The translations under genes were made by a program, and so were the position numbers. DNA of 64,000 bases. It comes from Isoetes taiwanensis. Lineage: Eukaryota; Streptophyta; Lycopodiopsida; Isoetales; Isoetaceae. Positions 2,845-36,400 of the stretch are shown in pieces. Position 1 is the first letter of the stretch; every line of letters begins with the position of its first letter. The notes below the pieces were generated by a model. It ran no database searches. It was not told the DNA's origin and saw nothing but the letters and a program-made list of their open reading frames with translations. The DNA lies in the NCBI GenBank assembly GCA_021234155.1, contig JAJEKV010000218.1, positions 434,001-498,000 of the forward strand. Direction: 5' to 3'.

Positions 2845-3337
2845 CATGCTGGCGTCATGAATGCATTGGGCTTAGATGCACTTGAACAACAAGCATTTGC
2901 TGACTACTTACTAAGTATAGGAGATGGCCGAGAACCAACCTTTCCGGAGAAGGGTGTTGATATGGTGCATCTGCCACAGGATATATGCCTTGGCTCAGAT
3001 GATGTGGATGATTTAATTCAGGACATATTTCCTGATATCCAACAGAACTGGAAAGAAGTGATTTTCTGGACACATCGTGCTATACTATCGCCTTTGAACC
3101 ATTTTGTCGATGAGATCAATAAGAAGGTGGCGTCTCTCATCCCCGGAGAGACGACGACATTTTAGTAGTCTTGATCGAATCATAGACACAGATGGCCAGC
3201 AAACAGGTCTATATCCCATTGAGTTTCTTAATGCACAAACTCCAAGTGGTGTACCGCCCCACGAGCTAAACCTAAAGGTGGGAATGATTGTAATGTTGTT
3301 GAGGTCTACATCGTTCAAGAAGGAACAAGATTGCGTA
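2845..3337 (+). pseudogene. Helitron helicase, middle part, interrupted by E1
   Basis: The sequence ..LLSIGDGREPTF...VHLPQDICL...DLIQDIFPDI...AILSPLNHFVDEINKKV...IPGE.. is the typical Helitron helicase segment after the DFRQILPVV motif. A frameshift lies near 3104-3165. The next piece, YPIEFLNAQTPSGVPPHEL..KVGMIVMLLR, is the block just before the conserved GLCNGTRL motif. That motif is absent here and is found about 8.4 kb to the right, at 11773 onward. The coding sequence stops at the TTAA that begins E1. Confidence 0.88.
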
Positions 3338-3400
3338 TTAAACGGGAGCAAATCATTGAAACGAGAGCAAAAGGAATATTCCTCAAAGATTCCCTTTTTT
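3338..3400. repeat. E1 left end: TTAA duplication and terminal inverted repeat
   Basis: TTAA at 3338-3341 is followed by ACGGGAG. A few bases on come AAACGAGAG and a self-complementary GGAATATTCC, then CAAAGATTCCC. The right end holds the complement of the first block (CTCCCGT) and of the last (GGGAATCTTTG). The terminal repeat is therefore interrupted: a 7-8 bp tip plus a subterminal block. Confidence 0.75.
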
Positions 3401-3703
3401 TTTACAAAAAAGGGGGTAAAACGAGGTTAAAAAAAAAAAAGATGCATGAAATTCTATTTTGACCCCCCCCAAATGACTAATTTTTTTTTGCAACGAAAGA
3501 ATTGACTTTTTTAAAGTGTCACTTTTCTTAGCAAATAGAATGTTCTTCAAGTATGTTTAAAGAGAGAAACTCTAATTTCAGAGGATAAAATATTTAACAA
3601 AAAATTGAAGTAAGTCTGTAACTGAAACTGTAGTATTCTCAAAATTTGAAGATAGAATCTTCATATTCACATGCAAAATTTACAGTCTTTTTCTAAGACT
3701 CAG

Positions 3704-6700
3704 TTATGTGCAAAAGTGTGAGGAGATGATGAGAGGGATCGGGGCGTCTTCATATTCATTTATGCCATCGTCATCACCTTCACTTCTTTCACTGTCATCC
3801 GAGGAAGTGCTTGAGTTATCTTCCTCATCACTATCAACAGACGGTGAAGCATTGTCACCACCTTCTTCATCATCTTCTTCGTAATTACAAGCTTTTTTAA
3901 GCAAATTGATAGTCTTCTGGCGTAGACGATTGTCAGATTTCAATTTAAAATCATAGCACAAAATAGTCACGTCATTAAGGTTTAGCTCGTCCCTACAACC
4001 CACCTTCTTGGACTTTCTCCCTTTTCCTTGGCTTCTCATTTCTAACTCATATCTACCTTCAAAAGCATTTTCTGAGCGTGTTGCAAGCCAATGAATCTTG
4101 AGTTTAGTGACTAAGCCTTCCTCCTTGACTGTGTCAAGCACTTTTGCTATCCAGAACGGTCGACCTTTGTCATCCTCCTCAGTCGGAAGAGCAATTAGCA
4201 TACCTTTGGTAATTTCTGTGATATTACCTTGAGGCTCATTCCTGCGTCTTGGTCCGAGGTACATGACTCGGTCCTCCTCGTCTTCTACTGCAGGTGCAAA
4301 TGTAGCACTGCTTGGACCTGCTTTGGTCTGGGGTTGATGGAAGGTGTTAGGCCATTGAAATGGTTCTTGCAACTGTCTTAGAGCTATATGTTGTACAACA
4401 ATTTTCTGTTCGAGAAAGAAATTACTCCACCACATCCGATCTTCTTCTAAGAAGTACTTAAAGCCTGAGGAAATTCCATTTTCAATGGCTTTTAAGGATG
4501 ACTCTGGGGTACTTTTCTTCTGCTTGGACTCCTTAGGATTTTTGAGAGGAAGTTGTTCAGCACGCTCTATGAAGGAAGTGTCTGGAATGTATTTAAGGAA
4601 GCGTAATCCCTCTGGTGGACTCCAGTCCTTAGTTGTGGTATACTTCTTCCCAGAAGAAGCTTTGGCCATCCTTCAAGTAGAACTTGATATGATGCTGAAA
4701 GGTGAGATCATTCAACTTGTTCACAGCTTGTTCTCTGTTTGAACGTTGAGAGAAAACAAACTCTCTAAAATCAGCAGTCTCTTTAAGAAGGTCGACCCTT
4801 TGGAGTAGGAGTGTAAGAATCTTCAATAATTGAACTAAAGAAGGAAGACGAAAGCCTTCTTCCTTCTAAAAGGCGCCACGAGAAAATCTGCTGAACATTT
4901 GGTCAATCTGATCATGAGTGTGGCCTACAAGTAAGAAACCAAGCTTCACTTTTCTAAAGATCCCTAGCTCCACTAACATGGCACAGTACGCAAAGAGTGT
5001 TTGATTCTTGTTCTCCCTTGTAGTATTGTCAAGTTGCAGATAAAGCACTGGTGGTAATTGCTCTTGCTTTCTTACAGGACCTTGTTAAGAATTGTAATTG
5101 TGAGGTTCGGGTCACCATGCAAGTTTGGATACGTCAAAAATACTTTGCACTTTAGACTTCCTTTGAAGACCATAGCTCCTACAAGGTGGACCTTAACAAA
5201 ACATTCCTCTCGCACATCCTTAGGAATGTTCAAGAAATGTGGTAGAGTTGTTTTTTTTTGGTCCATTCCATCAATCACAATAGACATGTATTGCAGAGTG
5301 GACGTTCAAGAGCTTTTTTTCTATGCTTGGCAAGCTTTCTTCTCTCTGCTGCTTGTTGTTCACGATGTCTGGCAAGGTTACATTTGCACAATATCAGAGA
5401 AGAAATCAGGTCAAAACATTTTCTCTCGAAACAAGTGAGAGATTGGAGAACATGAGCTTACTTCTTTTCGACCTCTGTCTTTTGCGGTTTTCGTTGACTC
5501 TTTAATTCTCGCACACCTCGAGCAAGCGGACATTCTATGTTTTCTAGGAATTTTCACAAGGCGAATTCACTTTTCCATCACGGTGAAGTGTGAGTAAGAG
5601 ATGTCTTTGAAGCTGAGTGCAAGTCTCTTTGTACTCATTAAAACATCTTTTTGGTGATGTTATCGGTTAAATGATACATGTTTTGTTAGGTAGCTTTCTC
5701 ACATGTTTCTCTAAAATATTTCTCCATCCATGACCACGGAAGCAAGGGCATGCATGGTTACAACTCTTCTTGGTCCACAATGATCATCGATTGCTGGATT
5801 TTTTTGTCCGATCTTTTGTGTATTCTAGACATTACGGTGGACCCTAAGCGGTGGACAACCATAAAGCATTTCGGCAAACTTCTTGGACGGTTAATGTAGT
5901 GCAAGAAGGTGTTGCGGTCTGGTCTTACATGATAAGCTAAGTAGGCATTCAGTGCGCCAATGTCATGGAACTCAGTAGTTGTCTCTAGCGCCGCCGTAAT
6001 TTAGCCATATTAAATCTGTTGATGCAACCCAATGAGCAGCATTTAGTTCTCAAAAGTCTCCTCATTTTGTGTTCATCCATAAGATTTCTTCTTCTTCTTG
6101 AGGAGCAGCGCCCTCAAACCAAAATCCACCTTGAATTTCTTTGAAGATTGGCTTGAGAACATGTAATCTCTTTGTTCCTCGTTGGTGTCTTCATCTTCTG
6201 ATGAAACTTCTACTCTGGGGGTGACTTCCTCTGTCCTGAGTGGTGTGCTTGTAGAGGAAAACAGACCACGTGAAGTTGTTCGAGGAATAGGCGGGAGTGC
6301 GGTGTTAAAGGATGGTGATGGCCCATAAGAGGTTGTGGCATCATTTGTTCTTGTACCATCTTGAAAAGGAGTTCTTGCAAACATCTCCTTTAGAAGCGGA
6401 CTGGAATTTCGCAAATCCATGTGTCACAACCGTTGTTGTGTGAAGAGGAGTGCATCTTTGAGCGCCGTCCTCATTTGTAGTGAAGTCCTGGTGAGAGAAA
6501 TTGTCTTTGAATCTCACGGTCTTACGTGTTTTCTCGTGTTCCTTGTATGTTTGCAACGAGGGGGCTTAAACTACAAAAGGGGGGGTAGCTTGTTCTTGAG
6601 CACCCTTTGTTGTGGAGCTTCTGTAGGTCCCGGGGATGGAACAAAGGGTGGTGGCAACCCGTTCGAACCGGTGGTGATTCTTTGGAAGGAGATGCCGCAG

Positions 6701-6923
6701 GCCGCTTTCTCTGAGGACTTGGTGACGGTTGGAAGGGTGGTGGAAGTCTGTTTTGTGCTGGACTCGGTGTGTCTTCGAGAAGCAACAACGATGAAGCAGA
6801 GGTAGGAGTCGGAGAATGCCGGTCTTCACTAGAAATGACGTTGTTCCCAAGCGTGTCCTCAGAACCAGACGAGCTTGAGACAACAAAAGGTGGTGGAAGC
6901 TTGTTCACGAAGCGGTTCGTCAT
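3704..6923 (-). pseudogene. E1 transposase (DUF7869-like RNase-H core), broken
   Basis: Read right to left. It starts at 6923 with a Ser/Pro-rich disordered N-terminus (MTNRFVNKLPPPF). Pieces at 6073-6556 and about 5500-6060 match the E2 copy (for example SWMEKYFRETCEK near 5700). The core follows: IDGMDQKKTTLPHF with a DPNLTITILN segment (5072-5287), then LQLDNTTRENKNQ...GHTHDQIDQMFSRFSRGAF (4866-5048). This is the pattern of a widespread eukaryotic family labelled DUF7869, probably an RNase-H-fold DDE-type transposase with Asp in the D-G-M-D and Q-L-D-N motifs. The open 3704-4669 part is the C-terminus: ALPTEEDDKGRPFWIAKVL, a basic patch and a very acidic Ser-rich tail. Frameshifts and stops separate these parts. 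Confidence 0.8.
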
Positions 6924-6975
6924 CTTGACAAGCGCAAAATAGTAAAGAGATTTGAGAAACTTTTACAGAATGCGA

Positions 6976-7640
6976 GCTTTTCTTATTCGAATACACGCCC
7001 ACGTAGTACAAGTAGAAGTTCGATTACTAATCAAGTGAAAGTCAAAATAAAAGCTATTCTCGGAATACACAAGAGTAGGATAGTAAAAGCTGAGCGTATT
7101 CGGATCACATAGAAAAAGAGCAAGGCGAAAATGATACCTTTAAAAGGAAATTTCGGGCGCTTTGATTGCGTATTCAGTCTCTCGAGCTCAAAGTCGCCGG
7201 CGCCCCACATACGATTATTATATTCAGAGACTGTATTCCGATTCACATAGAGAAACCATGGACAGGTCAGTGAGAAAGTACAACATTACAATCATTTGCA
7301 TGTCGTTTCTTGTTCGGAATACACTTTTCGCTGAGTCTGGCGAAAGTGTATTCGAATACTCTACCGCCGAGTGGAGGCGAAGTGTATTCGGAATACACTT
7401 TAGCCTTAGATGCTGGCCAAAGTGTATTCGGAGGGCTTTTCGCTGGAAGTGGAGGCAAAGTGTATTCCGAATACACTTTCGCCTCCACTCGAGGCGAAAG
7501 TGTATTCCGGAATACACTTTAAGCCTCCCTTTCGGAAAGTGTATTCGAATACACTCTTTGTACTCCAAGGCTTAAAGTGTATTCCGAACACCCGCCTCCA
7601 CTTTCGAAAAAGCTTAAAGTGTATTCCGAATACACTTTTC
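6976..7640. repeat. E1 palindrome array between the two genes
   Basis: About nine copies of AGTGTATTC-N(0-2)-GAATACACT lie between 7313 and 7640, with degenerate copies from 6976. The middle bases differ (CG, GG, CGG or none) but each copy stays self-complementary. Some units are extended by flanks such as GGAGGC...GCCTCC (about 7451-7490), giving longer palindromes. The array sits between the divergent starts of the transposase (6923) and the methyltransferase gene (7882), where promoters and 5' leaders should be. Short open frames here are only by-products of the repeat. Confidence 0.9.
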
Positions 7641-7881
7641 GTGTTTTTTAGGTTTTAGAAGTTACTTTTCCTTCCGTTTTTTAGTTAATTTAGGCATTCT
7701 TGCTGCATTTTTTAGCTTGTTTAGACCACTTTTTTTGCCAAGATTGCTGAGTGCTTTTTTGACATTTTTGTCCTCTTTTTGCCCTCTTTTTTCCCTTTTT
7801 GTAAGCCATTTTGTATTCTGGAATAGTTCTTTGCCACTGTTTTTTCTAACAAGGTCGTGTTTACACACAATTTGCCTGAAC

Positions 7882-10800
7882 ATGGCGACGGGCAGCAAGA
7901 AAGAAACAAAGAAGCCTCTTAAAATCGTACAGAAACCGCACCCACAGAGAAGGGTTGAGGAGTCGGATGCGCCCGCTATTTACGAAAACTTCCAAACTCA
8001 ATGGTTTTTTACAAGGGGTACTTCTGGAAAGTACAAACACCACGACTTTTCTCGCATGTCTGGTTTGGAGCCACGGAACCAAAAGGTGCGATGTGGGGAA
8101 TTTGCGCATGGGCACCATCCCGTAAAGCGGAGTGAGGTAGTTTGGGGCCGGTAAGGGAGGGAGATTGTCTTTTCGGACATCTCAAGGCTTTATTCATGTT
8201 GATGAATCCTACCTTAGACTTGTGAAGGTAAATCCACATCCTCTTTATAAGTATGTTTCTCACTACATTGAACAAGAGGTCGCTCTTCGCCATCATTAAT
8301 TACGTTCAAGCACAACGGCGAGGACTTCCCCCTACGAGTGAGAGAACAAGGGGAAGAGGAAGATCCGGGGAATCCATCGGGGAGTCCATCACGCGATCAT
8401 GAGCCCATCCGTGAGTACATCAGGTTGGAAGAGCAACCACCTCCACCACCAAAGAAAGAAGCGAGAGGCAAACCATAGGCTGCTAAAGAGCCTAAGAAAA
8501 GAAAACGGCTATCATTGAAGCAGAAGATGCTCCCGAGGATGCACACAAGAAGAAGAAGGGGAAAGGCAAAGCACCGGGCGTTGCCATCAAAGAAAAAAAA
8601 GTTGATAAAACAGCAGAGAAAATGGAAGAAATAAACCTGCACAAATTTGTGCAAGGTGTCATTTATTTGCCGGTCCACGACTATGAAGCTTCCTCCAAAA
8701 ATGAAGCTGGAGAACGACCAACTGCGCAGTTCGAAAGATATATGCAGACCACCTAAGGAACCTCAAGGACGAATCGGAGCAATCCCAATGCACATGTAGC
8801 TCCAATTGTTGTTCTTGTTGATAGAGAGCGATGCACAACTCTGCAGAGAGTCACGATAGAGAAAATGCGGACACATATCGCATTATGTTTTGGGTGGGAA
8901 CCACGACTTTAAGGCAAGGAGGCAACTATACAAGGAAAAAAAGAATCCTAGGTACTTTGCATTTCTCAGGCTTTGTCCTCATCGTGGTTTGACCGACGAG
9001 GAAGCTAAAATCGTTGCCAACACTCTGGCCCGACAACGAGTACAAGTTAAAAATGAGCTTTGTCGACAAAATCAGATTCATGCACAGAGAATATGTTATC
9101 TTCAAGGAAAAATATGGAGAGGATCTCAAAAAGCCACAGTACTCCCTTGAACTTAAAGAAGCTTGTGCCATTGAGTGTTGCCTTAAATATGACGAGGCGA
9201 ACAAACGGGCATCACTCATTGGTCATGACAATTGGTTTCAGCTAGCGTTCAGGGATGGCCGGGTAAGGTTACAAGCGTATCCCAGAATAAGATTTGGTGT
9301 GCAACTAGCTTCTAAGTTTTTTAATTTGTTTGCAGATCTGGGAGCTTCAGAACGAAATATTTAATATGTTTGAGCGCGGTGAGCTAAAAAGTAAGGGAAA
9401 GGTGTCGGAGAAGAAGAAAGGCAGCGACGTTCCAAAGAAGGAAATGACCATCACATGCGGAGGGAGATGGGGTTCAGCGACCACGAGAATTACTAGAACA
9501 CTTACGCAAAAGGTGGTGGACAAGGAGTTCACACTTTCGAAGAAATGTCGAAGGAGTTGCACAAGTAAGCATACAATCATTGCCGCCTTTTCACTTGTAG
9601 AATTACGTCCGGATAACGGCAATTTAGTGGTCCGGAAATGCTTTCGCACCCTCATTTGGAGCGAGTGTATTCCGAATACGTTCTCTCTTCTTGTAGTGTA
9701 AAAGTGTATTCCAGAATACACTTTTACTCCTTTGAGTCAGCGAAAACGTATTCTGGAATACACACTCTAACTTGTTGCGTTGTAGAAGTGTATTCCAGAA
9801 TACACTTTCGCTTCTTCTTTTGATTAAAGTGTATTCGGAATACATACGCGCAACAAGAAAAATATTGATTACGGCGCTTGTATTCTAGAATAACTTTGGG
9901 TGGCGGGGAAGATAGTTTACTTCGCGTTTTTCTCTTTCCAACTGCTAAAAAGGTTGTGTTTTTCTTTCTAGCCAAAAAAATGTTATCACCTGCCAGACAT
10001 GTCTGATGGAGCAACTCAACGTGGAGACGTGGGAGAGGTGCAAGGAGCTTTATCCCATAGCTACATCCGACGAAGCGTATGCTTCAAGACGCACCAAATT
10101 TTGAAGGATGGATGCTTGTACCGACTAAACACGTCATACTTTACTTGTCTGTCTCAATCTCCCCTTTGTTTGCAGAACAAGAAGAAAAAATAAGGACTGC
10201 CGGAAGGTTTTATGCACCTTGTCGACCGGCACACGAAGAAAGAACACCGGCGAGAGAGGAGAACTCTAGATGTGGAGCCTACGATTATGAAAAGTTTAAT
10301 TTATTTGACCAAAATAATTTGTTTTCCATCATTCACGGGACTGCGCACTAATTTGGTTGGGACGGTAAAGCCACAAGATTTCCTGCCGGTGATTGCGGAC
10401 CTTCCTTATGGCTTTAAACTAAGGGCGGCCGATTCTGACGACCCGGCCTTTTAAATTTTTGAGTTTAACGCTTTTCGTCGGCGACATCAAACAAGTCTAG
10501 CAACGCCAAGCAGCGGCGTCTTGTCGTGTTTCACTCGAGCATGCAATCGGCCTTGTGGAGTCCACGTTTAAAACTCGCCCGGATCCCGATTGCAAATTTG
10601 GTTATGAGAATTTGGTTTGGTGAGTACTTTATTACGGAATACGTTGGGCTTGTTTCTTCTTTTTTTGTTTTAGTTTTCTATTCGAATATAATTGCCTTTC
10701 ACTTGTTCTCTTTGTTTGTTTCTTGTTACTGTTTTCGTTAGTGACACTACTCATTTCTCTGGTACAAAACAAATATAAACTACCACCATGGGCGAGATTC

Positions 10801-11110
10801 TTTGAGTAAGGTTGAATACCTCCATGTTGCTTCTTGGAGTTTCGATGGAAAACGCACCATGGAGCATTTTAACTGGCAAAGACATGCGGAATTTTTCTAA
10901 TGTGTTGGAATTTCCAGTTGTGCTTCAAAAGCTCTGAGGACCCTAGTGCACAAGGTAGAATTGTTAATCACTACGAAGCCTCAAAAGCTAATCAACCATC
11001 TCCTAGACATGTTTTCACGTCCGAGGAGATTGGGTGCTTGATGCCTTCTCGGCTCACGGTACAACAATAGCTTGTGCACTTAGGAAGGGCCGAATTGTGT
11101 AGCGATGGAC
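7882..11110 (+). pseudogene. E1 ParB-like / beta-class DNA methyltransferase gene, broken
   Basis: The start is chosen at MATGSKKETKKPLK (7882), matching the MAT start of the E2 gene. Pieces in order: YENFQTQWFFTRGTS (about 7979); a Pro/Lys-rich linker (8400-8600); NPNAHVAPIVVLVDRERC (about 8785); GGNHDFKARRQL (about 8895), GLTDEEAK, then KMSFVDKIRFMHREYV (about 9050), together a ParB-like domain; IWELQNEIFNMFERGELK (about 9336) after an intron ending TTTGCAG; a short intron with palindromes; VITCQTCLMEQLN; the catalytic-type motif DLPYGFK at 10398-10418; RRLVVFHSS; and DAFSAHGTT at 11040-11066, a damaged FxGxG SAM motif. Many frameshifts and stops. The order motif IV before motif I is that of beta-class N6-adenine/N4-cytosine enzymes. 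Confidence 0.72.
9655..9892. repeat. E1 second palindrome cluster, in a methyltransferase intron
   Basis: Six more copies of the E1 palindrome (GTGTATTCCAGAATACAC, GTATTCTAGAATA and similar) lie between the exon ending near 9568 and the exon starting near 9980. E2 has clusters of its different palindrome in introns of the same gene. The placement in introns, not exons, fits insertion or amplification that splicing tolerates, or a need for sites inside the transcribed unit. Confidence 0.85.
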
Positions 11111-11714
11111 ATTGATAAAGAAGGCTGTGCAATTCATCAAGATGAGGCTGGCGGCCTTGCCTACCCTACCCGGATGAGCACCAAGAGTTAGGGGCCAAAT
11201 CCTCATCCGATTTTTGCCAAGTGACCTCTTTCTTCGAGATCTGACCTCCATTCACTAGCTCTTTAGAGGATGAAGCTACTTTTGCAGAGCTGAAAGAAGT
11301 GGCACTAGCTACCATTCCCGAAGACTTTGCACAAGTAGACAAGGGTAAGGCACAAGAAAAGGATCGATCAGAGAATGGGCATGTGAGAATCAAGCAAAAA
11401 GCATGATGAAGACTTTGATTTGGACCTTTAGTCCGTCTTTTCCAAAAACATTATCTATCGACCACCATGTGATGTTACAAATTGTATCATTGAAACACTC
11501 TTCATTATATAATAATTATTTTATTCACTACATTCTGGTGTTTTCAAGATAGTACTTTTTGAGAATACAAAAGCATGTCTAAATTCTTCCCTTTTCAAGT
11601 GTTGGTTTTGGCAAATTCCAAGTTATTTTACACTAGGGGGCCAAAAATGAGGTAAAAAAAAATTAAGCCTATTGGAATTCCCAATTAGAAGGAAAAAAGT
11701 GTCATTTTCTAGAT

Positions 11715-11772
11715 CAGGCTGTTTTTTTCAAGGGAATCTTTGAAACGGGAGTGCTGCAACACTCCCGTTTAA
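11715..11772. repeat. E1 right end: subterminal motif, terminal hairpin and TTAA
   Basis: GGGAATCTTTG is followed by an inverted pair, AAACGGGAGTG and CACTCCCGTTT, around a 6-base loop, ending at TTAA (11769-11772). The tip is the complement of the left end ACGGGAG. E2's right end has the same plan with different sequence, so the hairpin plan is conserved while the bases are not. Confidence 0.75.
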
Positions 11773-12194
11773 TTTGCAATCGTGTTAAGGGCCTATGCAA
11801 TGGAACACGGTTGATTATACGAAAGCTGGGAAGACGTGTTATTGAGGCAGAGATAGTAACTGGGACACACGTTGGTGATAGTGTGCTGCTATCGCGCATT
11901 CCAATTGTGCCTACCGATTCAGGTTTGCCATTTCAGTTTGAAAGGGTGCAATTCCCTCTGCGGCCGGCCTTTGCCATGACCATAAACAAGTCCCAGGGCC
12001 AGACAATGCATAAGGTGGGGATATATCTTCCAAAGCCTGTCTTTACGCATGGACAATTGTATGTGGCATTCTCAAGGGTACAAAATCGACAAGGAATTAG
12101 GGTTGCTATTAAAGACCCACCATCCATGCCTCAAGAAGACGCCAATACAGTTTCAAGGTTCACAAGGAACGTGGTTTACACGGATGCTTTGTGA
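11773..12194 (+). pseudogene. Helitron helicase C-terminal part, right of E1
   Basis: GLCNGTRLIIRKL...VLLSRIPIVPTD...PFQFERVQFPLRPAFAMT, then INKSQGQTMHKVGIYLP and HGQLYVAFSRVQ, are the C-terminal SF1 helicase motifs of Helitrons (INKSQGQT is motif V-like and YVAFSR is motif VI-like). The part joins the segment ending at 3337 in the same frame across E1 when one TTAA is counted. It ends VVYTDAL and a stop at 12194, the normal end of a Helitron helicase. Confidence 0.9.
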
Positions 12195-25149: not shown

Positions 25150-26319
25150 GAATTGTGCCTCCGCGATGGTCTCCCCGAATTGTCGGGGCTTCCCATGGCG
25201 AAGGGAGATAGTCTCAACTTCGATTTGCCGCAGACATGGATCTCATCTTCCTCAAGGAAACATGGGAGCATGCGGGGACCACGGGATACCCGACTTGCGG
25301 GGATCTGGGCACAAATCTTCAATGATTGCACAGGAAAGCGGGGGTATGGGGGGGTTGCCTGCTACTACCGAACAACCTTGGCACAATCAATCTCCTTGTT
25401 CAAGGCGGATAAGCACAAGAATTTTGTGGGTGCGGCGTGCAAACTGCGAAGTAGTGAGACCCTCTTTGTGGCGACTGCTACTTTCCACATGCGTAAAGCA
25501 ACTTCTATTACACCCCTTTCGGATGTGAATAGGCTGGACCCCTATGTCGATCTATATGATGACATACAAGAAAGATAAACAGGTTGGGCGTGTCATACTC
25601 CTTGGAGACTTCAATGCGCGCGACCGGGGTAGAACAACCCATGAGATTTGATCCCTTGATCGATGATATATTGCGGTTGCATCTGCGAGAAGGAGCTTGG
25701 CCCACGGACATCGATGACAATCAGGTCACAGCGCTATGGTCGACGATTGCTTTTGCTCTGCAAAGTATATTTGACCTCGGTAACTGCAATGGGGGCACGG
25801 TGGCCTTCCACCCTTAAGAGCACTTGTAGGCGGAAAACCGGGGGGCAGATCTAGTGTGGTGGACTATGTCTTTGGTGCACGAAAGGGGATATGCATGCCG
25901 TCAAGCACTTTCGGTGGGAACAACTAATAGGGATGAAGAGATCGACTCGGACCACTTACCACTTTACTTGAAGTTGGCTTGGCGGGTTGTGCGAACCCGG
26001 TGCAACAACTCCTCGCATGCCTCACATTGCGATTGGATTATGAACATGCGAGGGGCTTATGCCCGGATGCTTATAGATGACACCGCGTAAATTTTGCAAT
26101 ATCCTACACTAGAGCAACAGCAGCCGGGCGACCGATGTGCTTAGGACTCCAGGGCGAGAGAGGTGCTTTGGGATAAGCAGCCCAACGACGAACCTCCGGA
26201 ACACAACCTTCCCACGTAATCAATGGTTTGATGTAGAGTGCAAGGAACACAAACGCCTGGCTCTGCCAAGTCACGACCACCTTTTCGCCCACATGCGGGA
26301 CTCGGACGATAAACAAAGT
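25150..26319 (+). pseudogene. LINE-A AP-like endonuclease domain
   Basis: Pieces in different frames: MDLIFLKETWEH (about 25236, the xxxET motif), GVWGGCLLLPN, GDFNAR (about 25605, the GDFN motif), SVVDYVFGARKG (about 25850), and SDHLPLYLKLAW (about 25949, the SDHxP motif). Together these are the landmarks of the exonuclease-endonuclease-phosphatase fold that nicks target DNA for target-primed reverse transcription. The domain breaks off at the TTAA that begins E2. Confidence 0.75.
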
Positions 26320-26390
26320 TTAAAATGAACGCACTTATTTCTTTGGAAACGACTTCAAAAGGAATCTTTGAAAGATTCCTAAAAATTCCT
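26320..26390. repeat. E2 left end: TTAA and terminal inverted repeat
   Basis: TTAA (26320-26323), AATGAACGCACTTATTT, then AAAGGAATCTTTGAAAGATTCC with an inverted GGAATCTTT...AAAGATTCC pair. The GGAATCTTT block is shared with both ends of E1, although the tips differ. Confidence 0.8.
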
Positions 26391-26708
26391 TAAAAAGTCC
26401 ATTTTAAGATTTTTTTTTTGTGACAGTGTGACAATTTAGTTAATTTAGGTACCTTTTTGAGGGGTTGATTGAACATAACTTCCGTGCAAAAATTTCAAAT
26501 AGCAATTTTATCCTCCTATTTTAGAACAAAAATAGTTACTTATGTAAAGTGTAGCAAAAAGGGCAATAAAAAAAAATAGCAAGAGTAGTAGAGTGACAAA
26601 GAAGTGATATATTCAAGGTTGTGAAAATTGTACAAAATTATGAACAAAATTGTCAAAAATATAGGACATTTTGAATGACAATCATCATCTGCACTTTACA
26701 TTCTTTAC

Positions 26709-29530
26709 ATGTTCGAGTCATCGGACAAACTTACATTTTGCAGCAAGATCGGGATGCATCTCATCCTCGACTCATTTATTCCCCGATCACTTGAGCCTTC
26801 ATCCTCGACTTCACTCTCAAAACTAGATGTACTTTCGAGCGATCTTCTTCCTCAATCGTCTACAAGTGAGTCTTCATCATCATCTTTTTGGCCACCTTTT
26901 TGGCTTGTTTGTCTAATCCACATGCCGACCTTATTAAAGTTTGAGTGACCATCGTAACTTATTAGCGCATCAAAGAACAAAGTCATATGCAAGAACCTTT
27001 ACTTGATTAGATCTATGACGGCCGATTGCTTGCTTTGGACTTAGCTCTCTTTCCCACTCCTGTTTTACCATCTCCAAAGTATAACTCCCCTTTGAAAGCA
27101 TTGGCGGATTCGTTTCTCATCCGGTGCACTTTTAATTGAGTGGGAATTCCATCCTCTCTTGTTAATTCCAGTACTTTAGCTAGCCAAAATGGCCTCCCAG
27201 ATTCATCATTATCATTTTGGGACAGCTATGAGCATTCCTTTTCGAATCTACGAGTGAACCGGATACTCAAGCAACTTGTTGTCTTTGTGCATCAGGGGCG
27301 GTGTACATGACTCTGTCATCTTCATCCGAAGCTAGCCAATATCTCTACATGTTCCTCTTGATTCTCAACTTGCACGGGGAGAGTTTGCCTAGATGGCCAG
27401 TTGAATATGGCGGTCTTCGACCTTGTAATGAAGCTTGCAACATGTCACGTTCTTAGAAAAAAATTGAGGCCACCATAAAGCATCTCGCCTCCCCAAAGTG
27501 GTTAGAGCGGGATCAATACTTGTCTCAATATAATCCAATGATTTGTTTGAGTCAATTGCTCTTCCCTCCTTTTTACTCTTTGTGATTTCTTTCAAGCTTT
27601 TTAGAGGCATTTTCTGCAGAGAGCATGGAACTAGTATTGGGGATGGTGCGAATGAATTGAATACCTGGCCCGATGGCCCTTTGCAAGGATGTGGCATATT
27701 TCTTTCCTTGTAAGATGGCCTTGCCATCTACAAGTGAAATTTTGATCCGATCTTTGAAATGTAATGTTTCTCAAGGGCTCAATAGCACAGTGACCCAGTT
27801 GATCTCTCCGAAAAATCCATTCTTTGAAATCATAAGTTTCTTCCAATAACTCGATGTCTGGACGAGGATTGTAGGAATCTTGGATAACCTCAATCATTGC
27901 TGGTAGGCTGAGAGCTTTTTTTCGAGCAAGACGTTTAGAGAACCTCTTGAACATCGATCAATTTGATCGTGTGTATGACCAACAAGCAGGAAACCAATCT
28001 TCACCTTCTTGAAGATTTGTTTCTCTACTAGCATAGCACAGTAAGCAAACAACGCCTGATTCTTATTTTCCCTTGTCGTGTTGTCTCAGAACCGGTTGTT
28101 CTAGATTGGAAAGAAGCTTATTCAATATTGTGATAGTGAGATTTGGATCAGCATGAATGTTTGGATAATTCAAAAATGCCTTGCAAGATAGTTTTCCATT
28201 AAATACCATAGCACCAACAACATGCGGATGTATGAAATCTTCTTCAAGAAACATCCTTAGGCACATTGACAAAATGTGGTAGGGTGGTCTTCTTTCGGTC
28301 CATTCAACCGATATGTAGTTGAGTGGTTGTTCCAGTGCTTTCTTCCTATGTTTTGTCAATTTTCTCCTTTCCAAAAATTGTTGTTCTCTGTGCTTGTTCA
28401 GTTTCTCCTTCAATGCATCTGAAATGAAAATATGTTTAGGAAAGAACCTACTTTTAGTTAGAACTAGGCAAGAACACGCCCGGAAGCTTTATTGTTAGTG
28501 TGAAGTGTCCTTGCATTTTGTCTCCGAAGCTTTTAATTGAGCATGTAGCACAAACAGACATCCGGTGCTTTCTAGGAATGGACACGAGAAAACTCTTTTT
28601 CCAGAGAACATGAAAGTAAGAGTAGCGGACAAAAGCATTCTCCAGCCTCAACACACATCTCCTTATAATTATCGTAGACTTCTTGTTTCGTGAAATTGTC
28701 ACTCAAGTGGTACATGGGGCTGTTAGGGAGATTCTCGCAAGACTCCTTAAAGAAACCTTCCATCCAGGAAACACATTGAAGGGCATGAATTCTGGATATA
28801 CCTCCTGAATGGCAGTAGTCATTAATGCCTGGATTCTTGTCAAGCCTTTTTCTTCAGGCGGTCAAGTCGTCACACGCCTAAAGCATGAATCAATTTGAAG
28901 GCCGTTTGGCGCACTGGCGTGGCCACCGGTATGTAAGTAAACTTCTCACCACAATCGGCCTAATATTGAAGGCTAAGTAGCCCCTTTGGTCTAGCGAGTC
29001 ATTGAACTGTGAACTATCACGAATCAACCTCAACTCCTTTAGTCCAATCTTAAGCAAACAACGCGTTGAGAACAACAATGCTTTGTATGTGTTGCCCGCA
29101 AGTGAGCCTCGGTCCATGAGTTTCTTTCTTCTAACAGTTGTACATGCTTTCTTGTGTAAATTACGCTTTAAGATTCTTACTTGCAGGGGCTTTGAATTCG
29201 AACATGGAGTCTTGTGGCCCGGTAGATCCTCGCCTCGAGACATCAACATGAGGTGTTTCTTCGATGCGAGAGATCAACATGAGGTGTACTTGTAGATCTT
29301 TGAGAGGTTTGATGTGGGCAAGTCACGGGGGAGGTGCTTTCCCTCTCTCACGGGAAAAAGTAATCGAGGTTGGTGACGAAGTTGACCAGCTCCTGAAGTG
29401 TCGTAGAACACAGTAGTTGCGTGTCGCTGACTGCTCCCACTTGTTGTAGTACCATTTAGCGAAATGGATGGAGTTGGCGTAATTTGCCTCCGGGGAGGGA
29501 GGCTCTGCAGTTCTTTTCTCTCGAGCCATA
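26709..29530 (-). pseudogene. E2 transposase (DUF7869-like), broken
   Basis: Read right to left. The start is taken at MAREKRTAEPPSPEANYANS (29530), which follows a palindrome-rich leader. Then LFSTRCLLKIGLKELRLIRD (about 29050); SWMEGFFKESCENLPNSPMY and HLSDNFTKQEVYDNYKEMC (about 28670-28763); KHREQQFLERRKLTKHRKKAL (28330-28400); VVGAMVFNGKLSCKAFLNYP with HADPNLTITILNKLL (28120-28220); LFAYCAMLVE...FKKVKIGFLLVGHTHDQID (27955-28060, the core's C-terminal motif); and a C-terminus at 26960-27950 with ALWWPQFFSKNV. The order and sequence match the E1 transposase throughout. Stops and frameshifts interrupt it, and the QLDN motif segment is damaged near 28080. Confidence 0.78.
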
Positions 29531-29552
29531 CTCAGAAAGTTAGCATCACACT

Positions 29553-29726
29553 CGTATAAATTTATACCTACGAAGAAACGACGGTATAAATTTATACTGA
29601 GAGATGGTATACATTTATACGAAAGGGAAACTCTTGGCGGCAGACAGTATAAATTTATACGGAGATGGTATAAATTTATACAGAGGAGGGCAACATAGAA
29701 CAGAAACGGTATAAATTTATACAAAA
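29553..29726. repeat. E2 palindromes in the transposase leader
   Basis: Six copies of GTATAAATTTATAC with or without outer G/C lie between the divergent promoter and the transposase start at 29530, with 12-35 bp between copies. They would be in the 5' untranslated leader of the transposase transcript. Confidence 0.9.
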
Positions 29727-29818
29727 ACTCACAGACACTTGTATTGGAAACTTTATGGAGAAACGCTATACGAAACGGCACTTAGCAGGGGTACTTAAGC
29801 CCGGCCCCAATTCTATTT

Positions 29819-29866
29819 TCTATATATAGCACACCGAGTCGGCGCCAAGGGTCCGCCTTTATATAC
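29819..29866. promoter_or_regulatory. Divergent core promoter of E2 (two TATA boxes)
   Basis: GCTATATATAG on the minus strand (29819-29829) faces the transposase. TTTATATA on the plus strand (29858-29865) faces the methyltransferase gene, whose ATG is at 29914. The two boxes are about 40 bp apart, so both genes are probably driven from one shared control region. TATA assignment is by sequence only. Confidence 0.55.
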
Positions 29867-29979
29867 CCCTTCTTATTTGCTCAGGAGCGTCTATACGCTA
29901 GTCCATACGGGTCATGGCCACGTAAGTCTACTTCCGCATCGCTTTTAGTTTCTCTTTGTTTTAATCTGTTAGAGTGGTA

Positions 29980-30255
29980 GCTCGAGCGGTATAAATTTAT
30001 ACCGAGATGGCTCTGGATCGGTATAAATTTATACGCCCCGTGCTCGAGCGGTATAAATTTATACCGCTCTAGAACACGAGCGGTATAAATTTATACCGTT
30101 CAAGAACACTTGCGGTATAAATTTATACCGAATGTGTTCTGGAACGGTATAAATTTATACCGCTCGAGCACGGGGCGTATAAATTTATACCGATCCAGAG
30201 CCATCTCGGTATAAATTTATACCGCTCGAGCTCGGGGCGTATAAATTTATACCGT
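29980..30255. repeat. E2 palindrome array in intron 1, itself a 252-bp palindrome
   Basis: Nine copies of (C)GGTATAAATTTATACC(G) at about 31-bp intervals. The spacers also mirror: GCTCGAGCGG ... CCGAGATGGCTCTGGATCGG ... CGCCCCGTGCTCGAGC on the left has its reverse complement on the right. The whole block 29980-30231 is therefore one large inverted repeat centred near 30105, nearly perfect in the outer ~95 bp of each arm. It lies inside intron 1 of the methyltransferase gene. Confidence 0.9.
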
Positions 30256-30856
30256 TTCAAAATTGTTTCGGAATCTTGGTGTCTAGTGCTTAAAGAATGG
30301 ACCCGAACCTTAATATTTTAGTAATATTGTTGTGTTTTAAGCTTAAATAAGAAAAAAAAAGTGTTAATTAATTGTGGATTTTATGCCCTTTTAGCCTCTG
30401 TTTTTACTGTTTTTGTGTGTCAAAAAGTGAAAAAAAAAACATTTCTTACTGAAAAAATGGTTTTAACATAACAGTTCGGCCCAAGGATAAAATTTGTGCA
30501 CAAAGGCCAATCTTCAAAGGTTGCACCAATAGAGCCACAGACGTACGAACTAAAAGACCAGACATGGTACGTACACAGGGGCGCAAGAGAGAGCAAACCA
30601 ACTGACGCGTACCTGTACTTGTGCCATCAGTCAGGGAAGGGCAAGTACAAGGCCGTTGATTATTATCCTGCCGGCGAAATTATAAACATGTCGGCTACAG
30701 AAAACGAAGATGAACTTTTAATGAAGTGCATGCATGACAATGGGGAAGTCTTCTATGTTCTTAATAGTAAAATGCTTAGATTAAGCATGTGCAAGCCCAA
30801 AGACGTATCTGAAAATTACAAGGGCGGCTATGTAAGTTATTCTTAGTGGCTTTACG

Positions 30857-30874
30857 TATAAATTTATACCGTCA
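30857..30874. repeat. Single E2 palindrome in intron 2
   Basis: One copy of GTATAAATTTATACC lies in the 70-bp intron between GGCTAT|GTAAGT (30832) and TTACAG (30901). Even this short intron carries the motif. Confidence 0.85.
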
Positions 30875-31957
30875 TCCTCCTAACTTAACCCTGCATTACA
30901 GGATATAGTGGACATTTTGATGTCAGTGGTGCTTTGCGATGAAAAGGTGTTGGTCAAAGGTCTGTGGTACCCCACTACTATCGAAGAGGAAGAAAATGAT
31001 GAGGAAGTAGAAGAAGAAGAGGAAGAGGAGGAAATAGTAATACCAAAGGGAAAGGGTAGGAAGCATTCCCTGGTAGTAGATACACAGCCTCCCACCAAAA
31101 AAAAGACTAGAACCACAAAGGCATTGACTATAGAGGAGTCAGCAGAAGCTCTTCAGAAGGCTCCGGGTGCAGATATTGTTGTGAAGCCCGTAGACAAGTC
31201 AAGTGCTATTCTAAAACGGGTTAATGACACTAAACTGCTTAAGCAAACAATTTCCTTGACAATGAGCACTATTAAGAGGCCGCCTAAAAATGAAGATGGG
31301 GTCAGAGTTCTTCAGGTACGAAAGCTGTGCGCGGCCATGTGGCTATACTCAAGCAAAGAATGAGAAGGAATCCTCATGCCCATGTGTCGCCACTAGTTGT
31401 AATGGTTGACAGGAGTCAGTGCAACCAACTAAAAGATTATAAAAAGGCTAACTTTGAGGATTACACATATTTTGTACTTGGAGGCACACATAGTTACAAA
31501 GCAAGGAAGGAACTTTCAAAAGAAGAATCCCGTAACGAAGTTTGGAAGAGCGTAGAAGCACATATCTACGTTGGAGTCACAGACGAGGAAGCAAAGGTCA
31601 TTGCCGTGAGTCATAATCTCGACAATGACTTCAGACTAAAAATGAGTCTTATAGACAAGATCCGCTTCATGCACCGGGAATACGTAGAGTTCAAGCAAGT
31701 GCATGGGGAGGACTTCAAAAAACAAAAGAACAAGCTCCAAGAACTTCGAGAAGCTTGTATCATAGAGTGCTGCCTCAGCTACGATTCAGATAAGAAGCCC
31801 ATAATGGCTGTGAAGCAGTACGACAATTACTTCCAGCTTTCTTTCAGAGATGGTCAAGTAAGTAAAAGCTTTAATTTAGTTCTCTATAGTATGCTTAGCA
31901 TAGCTGAGTTTGTATATTAACATCGAACTTTGTAAATGCGTACCAAGGAAGACCAGC

Positions 31958-32196
31958 CATGGTATAAATTTATACCGTGCCTGGTCACAGTATAAATTTA
32001 TACCGCGTGACCGCATAAGATGCAAAGATAAATTTATCATCGTCACCGTGCACCGGTATAAATTTATACCGTACCTGGTGACTTCGTGATAAATTTATAC
32101 TGGTGATCCGCACTGCAGATAAATTTATAAAGAGGCCCGGTGACGGTATAAATTTATACCGGTAGCTCCGGTCACCGGTGATAAATTTATACCGGG
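31958..32196. repeat. E2 palindromes in the intron before the VWDLQ exon
   Basis: Seven or eight copies of (G)GTATAAATTTATACC or shortened GATAAATTTATA lie in the intron 31858-32293. Spacers repeat words such as GGTGAC and CCGGT. Flanking exons contain none. Confidence 0.88.
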
Positions 32197-33263
32197 TCGG
32201 TATTCCTTGTGCAATAATATAGTAGACTTCACAACAAAGCTTTGTTGTTATTCGCCATTCAACACTAAAATACTTGTGTTCGATCGTCAACAGGTGTGGG
32301 ATCTTCAAGAAAGAATATTTTGTATGTTCGAAGATGGTGAGCTGAAAGAACAATCTATGTCTGCCGGAAAAAAACCAAAAAAAGGTGGTGAGGCAAAACA
32401 AAAAAACATGAGCATTGTACCCTGGACGCAGCTACAGGGTTTGAAAAGCAAAGAAATTTTTGTAAGACTTCTAGAAAAAGTTGTGGCCAAAGAATTCACT
32501 CTCGACGAAATGGCCAAAGATTATGTCGTGTTCTTTTTTTCCTAATTTTGTCTGATCACATTTTTCCCTCTGCAGTCAGAAAGACATTGTCACCTGCCAG
32601 GCAGAATTAATGAAGCAACTAAACCTGGAGGACTGGGAGGAGTGCAAGGCTTTATATCCAACCTCTACTACAGATACTATTATCAAAGAGCACTTATTTG
32701 TTAACTTCAAGTTTCGGGTAAGTTGTGCGAGAAAATACTTTTTGTTTTCGTGCCTTTGTCTCTGTTTTTCTTGCGTAGAATAAGAAGAAAGGCCTACCAA
32801 CGGGATTTTTAAACCCGGGTCAGTGAGGGGCCAAGGAGGAGAGGCGTAGACCGAAAGCAATTGAGCAAGGAAAGCAAGTCAAAGACTAGCGCTTTTGACA
32901 CTACTTACGAGAGATTTACTACATTTGGTCGACGCCCAGTCAGGTGGTTGTTCGGGGATCGCACGCAGGTCGGGACTCTTTTAAACAAAAAAACTTTACG
33001 CTATGCATTGCGATATTCCTTATGGCTTCAAAATCAAGGATAGCACTTTTGACGCGAGGAGGCTTTTACTCACGTGCAAGTCCGTTCTTTCTTGGATGGC
33101 CTAAAAGAAGTCACGACATCGAAAAACCGGAGGGTCATCATTTTTCATTCGACCTGCAGACGATGTCGGTGCTAAAGCCATTGGGAGTCGCGTCATGTCG
33201 CGGGCTTCAAAACCGCATATGGTAAGCTTTGAATTTCTTGCTTTTCTATTTACTTTAACACCA

Positions 33264-33342
33264 CGGTATAAATTTATACCACAGTCGCCTCGTGGTATAA
33301 ATTTATACAGCAAGGCAATGGTGGTATAAATTTATACCGCCA
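33264..33342. repeat. E2 palindromes in the last intron
   Basis: Three copies of GGTATAAATTTATACC lie in the intron 33222-33410, directly after the exon with the DIPY motif and before the exon with the SAM motif. Confidence 0.88.
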
Positions 33343-34082
33343 CACCACTTAACTAACTTATTTTGTTCGTTTTCTTTCTGCCAATGTTTAATTGCTTTTT
33401 TGTTTGGCAGGCTAAAAACAAATGTCAAAGGACATGGTGGTGGTCCGCGCTTAGTAAGCTGCTTTGAACATTTCCATATTGGTTTTACAAATACGGACGC
33501 CAAAAACCATGGTTCATTTCAACACGCAGAATGAAAAGACTCCACCCTGCAACGCCTTTCAGTTTCCGGCTGTTCTACAAAAATTGAGAGACCCACAACG
33601 ACAAGGAGCTGTGGTATCTCATTATCAGAAGCCACAACGGCTAATTAATAATTTAATTCAGTGGTTTTCTCGCCCAGGAGACTGGATTCTAGATGCATTT
33701 TCAGGCTCAGGCACCACAGCAGTTTGCGCCCTTAAGCAAGGGCGCAATGTTGTCTCCGTCGACATAGACCAGGACAAAATAAGTTTCATCAGGACCAGGA
33801 TAAGCTCTTGTGAATCCTTTCCTGATGAAAACGAGGAACTGGGAGCAAAAAACGGTGCTGGCGATGTGAAAGGCACATATACAGAAATCCAGCCTCCACT
33901 TACGGGAAGAAGAGATGAGGAGGTGGAGTTTGTCGATCTGGAGCCTGTGGTGCCTGAGCCAGAGAAACAGCCTGTACCTGTACCATTGGAATCAGAAGGG
34001 GGCGTCTCTGCTATTAAAACCTCGCAAGAGACAGATCCTAAGGGGTACGAGAGTCCTGTGGACTGGGAAGAGCCACCTCCCG

Positions 34083-34097
34083 TATAAATTTATACAG
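34083..34097. repeat. E2 palindrome that supplies the methyltransferase stop codon
   Basis: The reading frame ends CCT CCC GTA TAA, and GTATAAATTTATAC is a palindrome copy. The stop codon at 34085-34087 is thus inside the repeat. Confidence 0.8.
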
Positions 34098-34429
34098 ACA
34101 GTATTTTAAATTAACTTTCATTGTAATCTATGTGCTAAGAATTTCAATATATTTTGATGAATATTTTTCAACTGAAAACTTTGTCTCTTTAACAATGCTT
34201 AATTAGAACAATTCTTTTTTTGATTTATGATTTCACACTCTTTCTCTTTTCTATGTTTGATTTTCTTAGTACTTATATTAAGCTTGCAAAAAGACAAACT
34301 ATATTTCCTTCTATTTTCAACAACAAATACTTACCTTATTTTTTTTAACTGAACCATTGGATTACAAATCCATTAGATTCGCAAATTTAAGCAATGAATA
34401 CGTCTACATGCATAAATACATGTAGAGCG

Positions 34430-34735
34430 TACAGCTTCAACGCAGAGCTTCAATCTGATGACAGATCAACGCAGCAACCAAACCGCTGAACATTTAAGGT
34501 GCAAGAACGGAATCTAATAAGAAGCAAGAAATCGAAATCCAGAAGCAAGAATCCGTAGCAAGAAATCAAATCCGTGAGGCAAGAATCGAAATGGGCCGGG
34601 ATTTGAACCCCGACGAATCCAAACCACTTGTGCACAAACAAATTTGTAAAGTGAACGAAGAATCGAAATGGGGCGGGAATTGAACCCCCGACAAATCCAA
34701 ACCATCAGGCATCCTAGGCGAGCCCACCCGCATCG
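34430..34735 (-). repeat. tRNA-related SINE-like tandem sequence
   Basis: On the minus strand two units read GGGGTTCAAATCCCGGCCC (about 34592-34611) and GGGGGTTCAATTCCCGCCCC (about 34672-34691). Both fit the tRNA T-arm/B-box. AAGTGGTTTGGATT before the first resembles an A-box. The box spacing is shorter than in a tRNA gene and no anticodon arm is visible. TTCTTGCTTCTGGATTTC-like repeats follow, as in SINE bodies. It is probably a SINE inserted in E2 or captured. Confidence 0.4.
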
Positions 34736-35189
34736 AAAGCGCTTTTACGAGCCTACCAGAATCGCTCCTCCCCGCTTGCGTGCTCCAAGTAGCTCCAAGC
34801 GGTTCTTCAAAGACAACTCTATGCCTTCATAGTGCGGAATCTTCTTCATCTCCTTCGCCATATTTGCCCAGCCCCGGCTCGAGTTTGAGATAAGAACAAG
34901 CGGAATTAGGAACACCCTAATTTCGCCCTCTAAACGGCCTTTCCTAAAAAACCATCTTCCAAAAAAATAAACCCCCAAAACCATTGAAAACCACCCCACA
35001 TAAAATCTTTTGCGAACCTTATGAGTTTTTAAATTTAATGTCTCTCTCCTCAAAACAAGTTTTTTTTTTTTTGCCCTTTTTTAAAAATGAAAAGGCTTCA
35101 AAAATGTTGCTTTTTTTGGGGTATTTCGAATGCTATTTGCTCAACAATCTATTTTGCTCCCTATTTTGTCCATTTTTTTCAAGTTTCCA

Positions 35190-35245
35190 ATTTTTATAAA
35201 GGAATCTTTCAAACGCACTTCTTAAATAAGTGCGTTTCATTTTAA
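35190..35245. repeat. E2 right end: subterminal motif, terminal hairpin and TTAA
   Basis: AAAGGAATCTTTC, then AAACGCACTT and AAGTGCGTTT around a 7-base loop, then CATT and TTAA (35242-35245). The layout is the same as the E1 right end: GGAATCTTT, a hairpin beginning AAACG, then TTAA. Confidence 0.8.
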
Positions 35246-36400
35246 ACCTTGTTAGTACCGCATCTTCCTTAAAGCTAAGAAAGCCAGCTACATTGCAGCG
35301 CATCAAAGGGAAATGTTTTACCTCCTGGAACGTCACCCCGGGACCTTCCGGCGAAGGGTTCTTAGAAAGCCGCGATGTGAGCCCACGTGGAATATCACTT
35401 CCGAAAGTGGAGGCAATACTTTGCAACTACTATACGACCCTCGGGGTGCACATGCAAAGATTACCCTTGCAAGAAGGCCAGTCTTTGGAAATCACAGATT
35501 CGGACGTGGAACAAGGCTTACAACAGATTGCCAATGGGAAAGCCCCGGACTTGGATGGTATGCGCGTAATTGCTTAAGTGGGCGTGGGCCGCCCATAATA
35601 CCGAAGTGCGACCGCCTTGTTCAACAAGGCATTACAGAAGGTTTCCCCAATCGCGCAGTGGACCAATAGCGTAGTTGTTCCCATCTATAAGGCGGTGACC
35701 CACACCGCCTGTACCCACCACCGAACAATCATGGTCGGTTCGGTGTTTGCAAAACCGCTTGTTGGGATTCTCAAGCAGCAGTTGACGAGCTGGGCAGAGG
35801 CAGTAGAGGTGCGGGCCCTCACCCAGGCTGGATTCAGATCCCGACACTACGATTGACCACATCTTCACGCTATTAACTCGATTGAAGATAGCAGGAACCG
35901 CCCGGGGATCTATATTGTTGCTTTGTGGATTTTTGCGAAGGCGTTTGACACCGCGTGCCTCGGGAAAAACTATGGGCAAGCCGCGCAAACCGGGGGTTTC
36001 GTAGATTTGCGAATGCAGGTCAAAGCTATATGAAAGATGCTTGGGTCGGTTGCGTTGACACAAACCAACCATTTGGTAGTAGTATCGGGTTCGCCGGGGA
36101 TGCCCCTCTCCCCAACATTGTTTGGGCTTTACATTGATCAATTGGAGAGCTGGCTTGCCGATAATGGGGCGATGGAGCTCACCTTCTCCATCGATCATCG
36201 GCGGATTAGTTAATATATGCTTTGATGATGTGGACCTCCTAGCTTACACACCAGCGGACATGCAACGACATCTCGATGCCCGGACACATCTCCCGCCAAG
36301 CGACCGATATGCGGCGTCAACCCGCCAAGACTAAGGTGGTTTTCATATCATCTTCACGTCGGTAGGGGGTCCCTCCTTCGCCATCGAGAGGCTTTAATGT
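35246..36400 (+). pseudogene. LINE-A linker and reverse transcriptase, broken
   Basis: It resumes after E2 with KKASYIAAHQREMFYLLERH (about 35278), then GKAPDLDG (about 35541), FNKALQKV, HHRTIMVGSVFAKPLVGIL (about 35715), TQAGFR, and, near 36060-36130, remnants of the VRQGCPLSP..LFGLYID block. Near 36215 CFDDVDLLAYTPADMQRHLDA is the degenerate YADD catalytic box (FDDV for YADDV). Frames change at least five times. The enzyme would copy LINE RNA into the nicked target. Confidence 0.82.

Follow-up and report, generated by a model that had tools for sequence, protein, structure and literature searches.

The VANDAL elements of Arabidopsis are Mutator-like transposons, unlike elements with a DUF7869 transposase; in VANDAL21 the transposase gene is VANA21, and the accessory protein VANC is not known to be an amino-methyltransferase. 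In the available text of two reports (PMC5735166, PMC10398659), the VANC21 motif is found within the VANC21 and VANB21 introns as well as upstream of VANA21, motifs differ between related VANDAL families, and VANC brings about a loss of DNA methylation. Here we describe a DNA transposon that pairs a DUF7869 transposase with a divergent methylase gene and carries dense arrays of a short palindrome, found in a 64,000-nucleotide stretch of the quillwort Isoetes taiwanensis (contig JAJEKV010000218.1, positions 434,001 to 498,000; hereafter the window). This element (family A) and its relatives of a second family (B) resemble the VANC system in having an accessory protein encoded within a transposon and a short family-specific motif in dense non-coding arrays, both in the introns of the accessory gene and upstream of the transposase gene. 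They differ from it in that the VANC21 motif, as described in the available text, is a non-palindromic 9-mer in single-orientation arrays, and in that methylation loss has been demonstrated for VANC whereas any such effect of the present elements is a prediction from sequence; they are likened to VANDALs by mode of action, not by homology. We think it somewhat more probable than its opposite that the methylase protein would recognise the palindromes of its own family and mark the element, as an anti-silencing or self-identity system.

Other relatives share single features with these elements. CcrM, a bacterial cell-cycle enzyme, and other beta-class adenine methyltransferases have the same order of catalytic motifs (motif IV, then motif I) and the S-adenosylmethionine (SAM)-binding sequence FSGSGTT, but CcrM has no transposase and no palindrome array. 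Mobile elements with cytosine methyltransferases or TET/JBP enzymes are already known, as are the VANC arrays. The TET/JBP dioxygenases of fungal DNA transposons are thought to evade methylation-based silencing and likewise place a DNA-modifying enzyme on a DNA transposon; unlike the present case, they act by oxidation of 5-methylcytosine, in fungi, and the abstract makes no mention of family-specific palindrome arrays (PMC12730594). Retrotransposons of dinoflagellates and charophytes that carry a DNA methyltransferase (DNMT) are also mobile elements encoding such an enzyme but, in the available text, the enzyme is a host-derived C5-cytosine methyltransferase acting at CG and the carrier is a retrotransposon (PMC5890265). 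The N4CMT of bdelloid rotifers is likewise a bacterial-type, permuted amino-methyltransferase (PF01555) found in a eukaryote; in contrast with the methylase described here, the available text presents it as a host gene with a chromodomain that is linked to transposon silencing and is not transposon-borne (PMC8885841). No transposon combining an amino-methyltransferase with family-specific palindromes was found by title and abstract start in several literature searches, two of which were listed in part; the scope did not extend to transposon libraries such as Repbase. A literature search with TATAAATTTATA gave nothing relevant by title and abstract start, and no published literature on DUF7869 was found.

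The I. taiwanensis genome that we searched comprises 1,658,258,908 bases in 1,110 contigs; loci fetched from it for comparison bear L-numbers, and family A was sampled at 30 copies, the window copy included. The genes and ends of the family A element in the window are as follows.

26312-35253, no strand: family A element from terminal repeat to terminal repeat (8.9 kb), with matching terminal inverted repeats (TIRs) at both ends
26312-26340, plus strand: left TIR, with TTAA inside the repeat
27631-28853, minus strand: DUF7869 transposase in broken frames (27631-27957, 28063-28488 and 28572-28853), the first two assigned by PF25273, the third by place and recurrence in other copies
29323-29531, minus strand: probable N-terminal piece of the transposase, an open frame beginning MAREKRTAEPPS, assigned by position
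29914-29921, plus strand: methylase exon 1 (ATGGCCAC), with a GT donor next to it; L081 is identical
30475-30831, plus strand: methylase exon 2, from comparison with other copies
30902-31857, plus strand: methylase exon 3, an acidic stretch and then a ParB/sulfiredoxin (Srx)-like region (31336-31857); frame broken near 31320-31340
32294-32717, plus strand: methylase exons 4 and 5, at about 32294-32520 and 32576-32717, from tblastn to other copies and the splice sites of L079
32780-33221, plus strand: methylase exon 6, carrying DIPYGF as catalytic motif IV; the window copy has a broken frame here
33411-34087, plus strand: methylase exon 7, carrying DAFSGSGTT as SAM-binding motif I and matching PF01555 (E 1.9e-15); its stop lies inside the last palindrome
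35224-35253, minus strand: right TIR, counterpart of the left

The divergent plus-strand gene thus has seven exons with standard GT-AG splice borders, which were taken from two better-preserved copies, L081 (exons 1-3) and L079 (exons 4-7). In the encoded protein, an N-terminal part with the acidic stretch is followed by the ParB/Srx-like region and, after a linker, by a permuted amino-methyltransferase domain. The window copy is a relic, since its methylase frame is shifted at several places; better-preserved stretches exist elsewhere in the genome. The window exon (33458-34084) matches PF01555 (N6_N4_Mtase) at E 1.9e-15, exceeding the cut-off of 26.7 bits, with corresponding values of 8.9e-15 for L079 and at best 3.1e-18 among two members of A1. 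The methylase product of better copies matches phrog_67 (E 3.4e-22) and the CcrM structure (E 1.9e-8), the best match to a solved structure being 6pbd (E 1.4e-10 with a profile); the match to NF050803 (E 3.4e-13) reaches 49 bits, far under the NCBI cut-off for CcrM itself (830). Motif IV (DIPYGF in family A, DLPYGF in family B; exon 6) precedes motif I (DAFSGSGTT; exon 7), which is the permuted order, and DIPYGF is present in 26 of the 30 family A copies and DLPYGF in the family B locus L085. Low-scoring Pfam names (IgA0_D2, CAC1F_C and LIP) were discarded as spurious. Judged by domain type, the methylase likely derives from a bacterial or phage enzyme; phage records gave seven weak matches to the methylase, each over less than 80% of the query.

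On the minus strand, frame 27631-27957 matches PF25273 at E 1.7e-8 (34.7 bits, cut-off 26) and frame 28063-28488 at E 1.7e-4, under Pfam's cut-off. Both genes, broken or not, are present in all four long elements with two ends (L079, L082 and the A and B elements of the window), and transposase pieces were found in four of six family A loci fetched at 10 kb. These elements are two-gene DNA transposons, and the quillwort genome holds hundreds of them. An earlier note, made from the letters of the window without database searches (the original prediction), had placed a minus-strand DUF7869-like transposase and a divergent plus-strand methyltransferase in one bounded element, and had assigned the latter to the beta-class N6-adenine/N4-cytosine type from motif IV preceding motif I. 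The profile matches agree with both identifications, including the comparison with PF01555 that the note proposed, and the pair recurs between inverted terminal repeats in several copies. The note mentions neither the frameshifts and palindromes of this element nor the second element in the window.

The palindrome GTATAAATTTATAC occurs in 23 exact copies in the window, all within 29554-34095. Twenty-two of these are non-coding (between the divergent genes or in introns 1, 2, 3 and 6) and one spans the stop codon.

29554-29722, no strand: five exact palindromes and one with one mismatch, between the divergent genes, near the presumed transposase start
29989-30252, no strand: intron 1 array of nine exact palindromes at 30-32 bp steps, with spacers forming a long hairpin
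30856-30869, no strand: intron 2 palindrome
31962-32192, no strand: intron 3 array of four exact palindromes and two with two mismatches
33266-33337, no strand: intron 6 array of three exact palindromes
34082-34095, no strand: last palindrome, across the stop codon

No exact copy was found in the transposase half of the element or elsewhere in the 64 kb, and none of 100 shuffles contained the 12-base core of the palindrome. Across the genome there are 12,556 copies of GTATAAATTTATAC, compared with 17 for its backward sequence as a control; the base composition of the window predicts about 28. The first 50 of these places fall on eight contigs (L039 and L041-L047), and all eight loci have the family A terminal repeat or gene pieces. 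Spacing between A palindromes peaks at 28-32 bp, near three helical turns. In viral contigs, the extended A palindrome was found in 34 stretches, each with a single palindromic site. The TAA stop of the methylase gene lies inside the palindrome, a junction that a script found in 15 of the 30 A copies, and in 13 of the other 15 a palindrome core stands at about the place of the stop codon.

Family B has a palindrome of its own. A protein search returned fragments P0001-P0003, and genome searches for exon 7 with family A and P0001 as queries each gave at least 150 matches. The two sets differ in family, since family A is about 52% identical to P0001 whereas identity to P0001 is 63-88% among the matches listed for the P0001 query. 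The best-preserved B copy fetched is L085, whose protein shares about 49% identity with the family A protein across the ParB-like and methylase parts. L085 lacks the A palindrome, and its introns contain GTATTCCGGAATAC at 42-bp steps. The genome has 3,720 exact copies of GTATTCCGGAATAC and none of its backward control; spacing peaks at 42 bp, near four helical turns, and both family B exon-7 matches on contigs among the palindrome places listed are less than 1 kb from B palindromes. A decayed B element also lies in the window.

3324-11786, no strand: family B element, decayed, with TIR AACA(A/C)GATTGC... and duplication AAGG, boundaries by eye
4695-5803, minus strand: remains of a DUF7869-type transposase (best E 1e-25 in tblastn with the transposase pieces of family A)
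7896-11428, plus strand: remains of the methylase (tblastn with L085 exons, best E 2e-47)
7502-10642, no strand: palindromes at 7502, 7813, 9706, 9748, 9790 and 10629, with 42-bp steps over 9706-9790

Of its six palindromes, one is exact, three have one mismatch and two have two mismatches. At no more than one mismatch, all 30 sampled A copies have the A motif and none has the B motif (the listing has 36 A loci, six being longer cuts of copies already among the 30), and among three B loci the A motif is present in none and the B motif in two. Counts of A and B motifs at the same threshold are 24 and 0 in the A element of the window, 0 and 4 in the B element and 0 and 0 in the remaining window. 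The two palindromes have a common outer GTAT...ATAC and different cores (GTAT-AAATTT-ATAC vs GTAT-TCCGGA-ATAC), although with only two families the common outer part could be due to chance. At L040, five B palindromes (at no more than one mismatch; 113-630) adjoin transposase pieces 42-59% identical to those of the window, with a family A element next to them on the same contig. In family B locus L084, exons 5 and 6 are about 6.8 kb apart, probably owing to insertion of another element.

Purifying selection on the methylase exon is strong. We calculated the ratio of non-synonymous to synonymous substitution rates (dN/dS) for 28 of the 30 A copies and two of the three B copies, using only pairs with dS above 0.02. 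Among the A copies, which were chosen as best matches to the window exon 7 and hence are biased toward intact ones, pooled dN/dS of exon 7 was 0.11 (median dS 0.31, 376 pairs) and that of its catalytic part (first 115 columns) was 0.03 (median dS 0.38, 375 pairs). The two B copies differ in exon 7 by a dN of 0.026 and a dS of 1.42. Within intron 6, the mean pairwise difference was 0.041 in motif columns vs 0.164 in other columns (26 of 30 copies), about four-fold less, and none of 235 circular shifts of the motif mask was as extreme; at the fourfold sites of exon 7 the difference was 0.185 (25 copies). Two short two-ended derivatives, L042 (3356-5558, 2.2 kb) and L044 (2139-5567, 3.4 kb), each with a 4-bp duplication, keep A palindromes. 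One weak exon-2 piece was matched in L042 and no gene piece in L044, and such retention of palindromes after loss of full genes is as expected for non-autonomous copies that still need to be recognised.

A DNA-marking enzyme is the best reading of the second gene because a methylase-type gene is repeatedly paired with the transposase and is under purifying selection. We propose that the DUF7869 transposase would move the element, while the divergent gene would yield a permuted amino-methyltransferase with a ParB/Srx-like region ahead of its catalytic domain. This protein would bind the palindrome of its own family, load cooperatively on arrays of evenly spaced non-coding sites and methylate the element, and the element and its relatives might then, in the face of cytosine methylation by the host, stay in active chromatin or be distinguished from host DNA. 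The methylase is suggested as the reader of the palindromes by analogy with VANDAL21; unlike VANC, it could write the mark too. The transposase is less likely as the reader, because neither the terminal repeats nor the transposase half contains the exact core. The original prediction had held that the enzyme marks DNA, perhaps that of the element; the repeated pairing and purifying selection of the amino-methyltransferase fit the first part, and the second, offered as a possibility, gains sequence support from the family-specific palindromes. More specifically, the elements may have a private epigenetic identity, in which the methylase reads a parS-like, family-only palindrome and writes N6-methyladenine (6mA) or N4-methylcytosine (4mC), giving active or protected chromatin, with sister specificities split by change of the core; this version we put forward tentatively, at rather less than an even chance. 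From DIPY and DLPY, N6-adenine would be a more likely target than N4-cytosine.

If true, plant transposons would have a second sequence-specific self-marking system, unlike VANC in both protein and mark. The elements would then also direct adenine (or N4-cytosine) methylation to particular sites in the nuclear DNA of plants, a setting in which these marks are under dispute. Every predicted site is an exact palindrome (12,556 and 3,720 in one genome), the two families would serve as mutual specificity controls, and protein-palindrome pairs are possible tools for targeted marking.

The main alternative, which we consider unlikely, is that the palindromes have no epigenetic role and are operators through which the accessory protein (or the transposase) represses or balances transcription of the two divergent genes. 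Palindromes of 14-24 bp are typical for dimeric DNA-binding proteins, and sites in the intergenic region and intron 1 would suit such a function. However, up to 32 sites (at no more than one mismatch, in L083), some as far away as introns 3 and 6 or at the stop codon, are more than an operator needs, and repression would not need a conserved catalytic methylase (dN/dS 0.03). We regard as fairly improbable a control of transposition by methylation, in which the mark licenses or blocks the transposase or protects donor sites and the palindromes are loading sites. Dam controls transposition of IS10 and IS50, and here too a conserved methylase shares a bounded element with a transposase, but the terminal repeats and the transposase half, where the transposase would act, lack the exact core in the window element and the 10-kb A loci.

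It is also quite improbable that the palindromes are structural, with arrays growing by template switching between self-complementary units and hairpin-prone introns, possibly as small-RNA sources, and no protein partner. The intron-1 array (29979-30232) is a near-perfect inverted repeat with 120-nt arms that are 96% complementary, and intron-1 spacers pair as long hairpins despite differing between copies. This pairing is clear in six of eight A copies folded. L079, for which the wrong stretch was captured, gave no spacer signal, L078, with three motifs captured, gave a weak one, and L080 has no motif there. The hairpin is possibly a small-RNA source or a product of template switching. Recombination between self-complementary units could yield such hairpins, and our argument therefore does not rest on them. 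Against a purely structural origin, two related families hold different palindromes with no crossing in the sample, and motif columns are more conserved than spacers. Finally, gene capture is common in mobile elements, but that the methylase gene is a captured passenger with no role for the element is very improbable given strong purifying selection at a median dS of 0.31 (0.38 in the catalytic part) and retention of the methylase in two families about 49% identical.

Several observations weigh against recognition of the palindromes by the methylase and marking of the element. The B sample is thin (three fetched loci, the window element and the B motifs in L040), and one of those loci, L086, has no B motif at one mismatch or fewer and two weaker sites at two and three mismatches. 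In family A, L053/L080 and L074 are down to a single A motif, and transposase pieces were not found in L078 and L080, two of the six A loci at 10 kb. The transposases differ between families too, and the motif might have co-evolved with the transposase. Homogenisation by gene conversion, rather than selection, could be the cause of the likeness among palindromes. Beta-class enzymes have the motif IV consensus (D/N/S)PP(Y/F/W), and that of the present methylase is DIPY or DLPY instead of canonical DPPY, with the first proline replaced and the remainder conserved. Similarity of the N-terminal region to ParB, moreover, reaches no curated cut-off, and several scans show none.

The assignment of that region to ParB/Srx is suggestive. 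By eye, its pattern GG(T/N)HS(Y/F)KAR...(V/L)TDEEAK...HN(L/V)DN resembles ParB. Four weak comparisons point to ParB or sulfiredoxin: phrog_723 for the L081 piece (E 0.012), TIGR03764 for L085 only (E 0.012), hhalign to the ParB/Srx type (E 0.058, probability 0.9%) and sulfiredoxin (E 1.4), the last outscored by designed repeat proteins at E 4e-4. However, phrog_723 was not among the matches of the L079 and L085 pieces, none of the three ParB-like pieces matched PF02195, profile scans of Adiantum proteins gave no ParB family, and the ParB-like exon, used on its own as a protein query, returned nothing at E 0.001. Predicted structures had pLDDT values too low to use (40 from the single sequence, 37 from the Adiantum protein with nine rows). 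Of the earlier ParB label, then, the motifs GGTHSYKARKEL...TDEEAK are present, whereas no ParB match is much better than E 0.01.

Both ends of the window copy have the family A TIR, AACAA(A/G)GTTTAAAATGAA(A)CGCACTTATTT, or AACAA(A/G)GTTTAAAATGAAACGCACTTATTT with the left end shorter by one base. The terminal repeat runs on beyond TTAA (AACAARGTTTAAAATGAAACGCACTTATTT), and the bounds 26320-35245 given originally are therefore replaced by 26312-35253. A variable 4-bp target duplication is present in five of six copies with both ends seen (AAAT in L042, TTGA in L044, GTTA in L079, TAAG in L082 and AAGG in the B element of the window); the 4 bp flanking the A element of the window, GATA and AGTA, do not match each other. 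Boundaries were read by eye. With TTAA internal to the repeat and the duplication variable, a TTAA-specific transposon of the piggyBac or Kolobok type was rejected, and the earlier description as a TTAA transposon fails with it.

Homologous proteins, annotated as hypothetical, occur in the ferns Adiantum nelumboides and A. capillus-veneris. In P0006 of A. nelumboides the catalytic residues are altered (EAPY for DIPY, FAGTD for FSGSG), and given these residues some fern copies may be dead or repurposed. Just beyond the right end of the A element in the window, at 35256-35856, open frames resemble, by eye, the remains of a reverse transcriptase.

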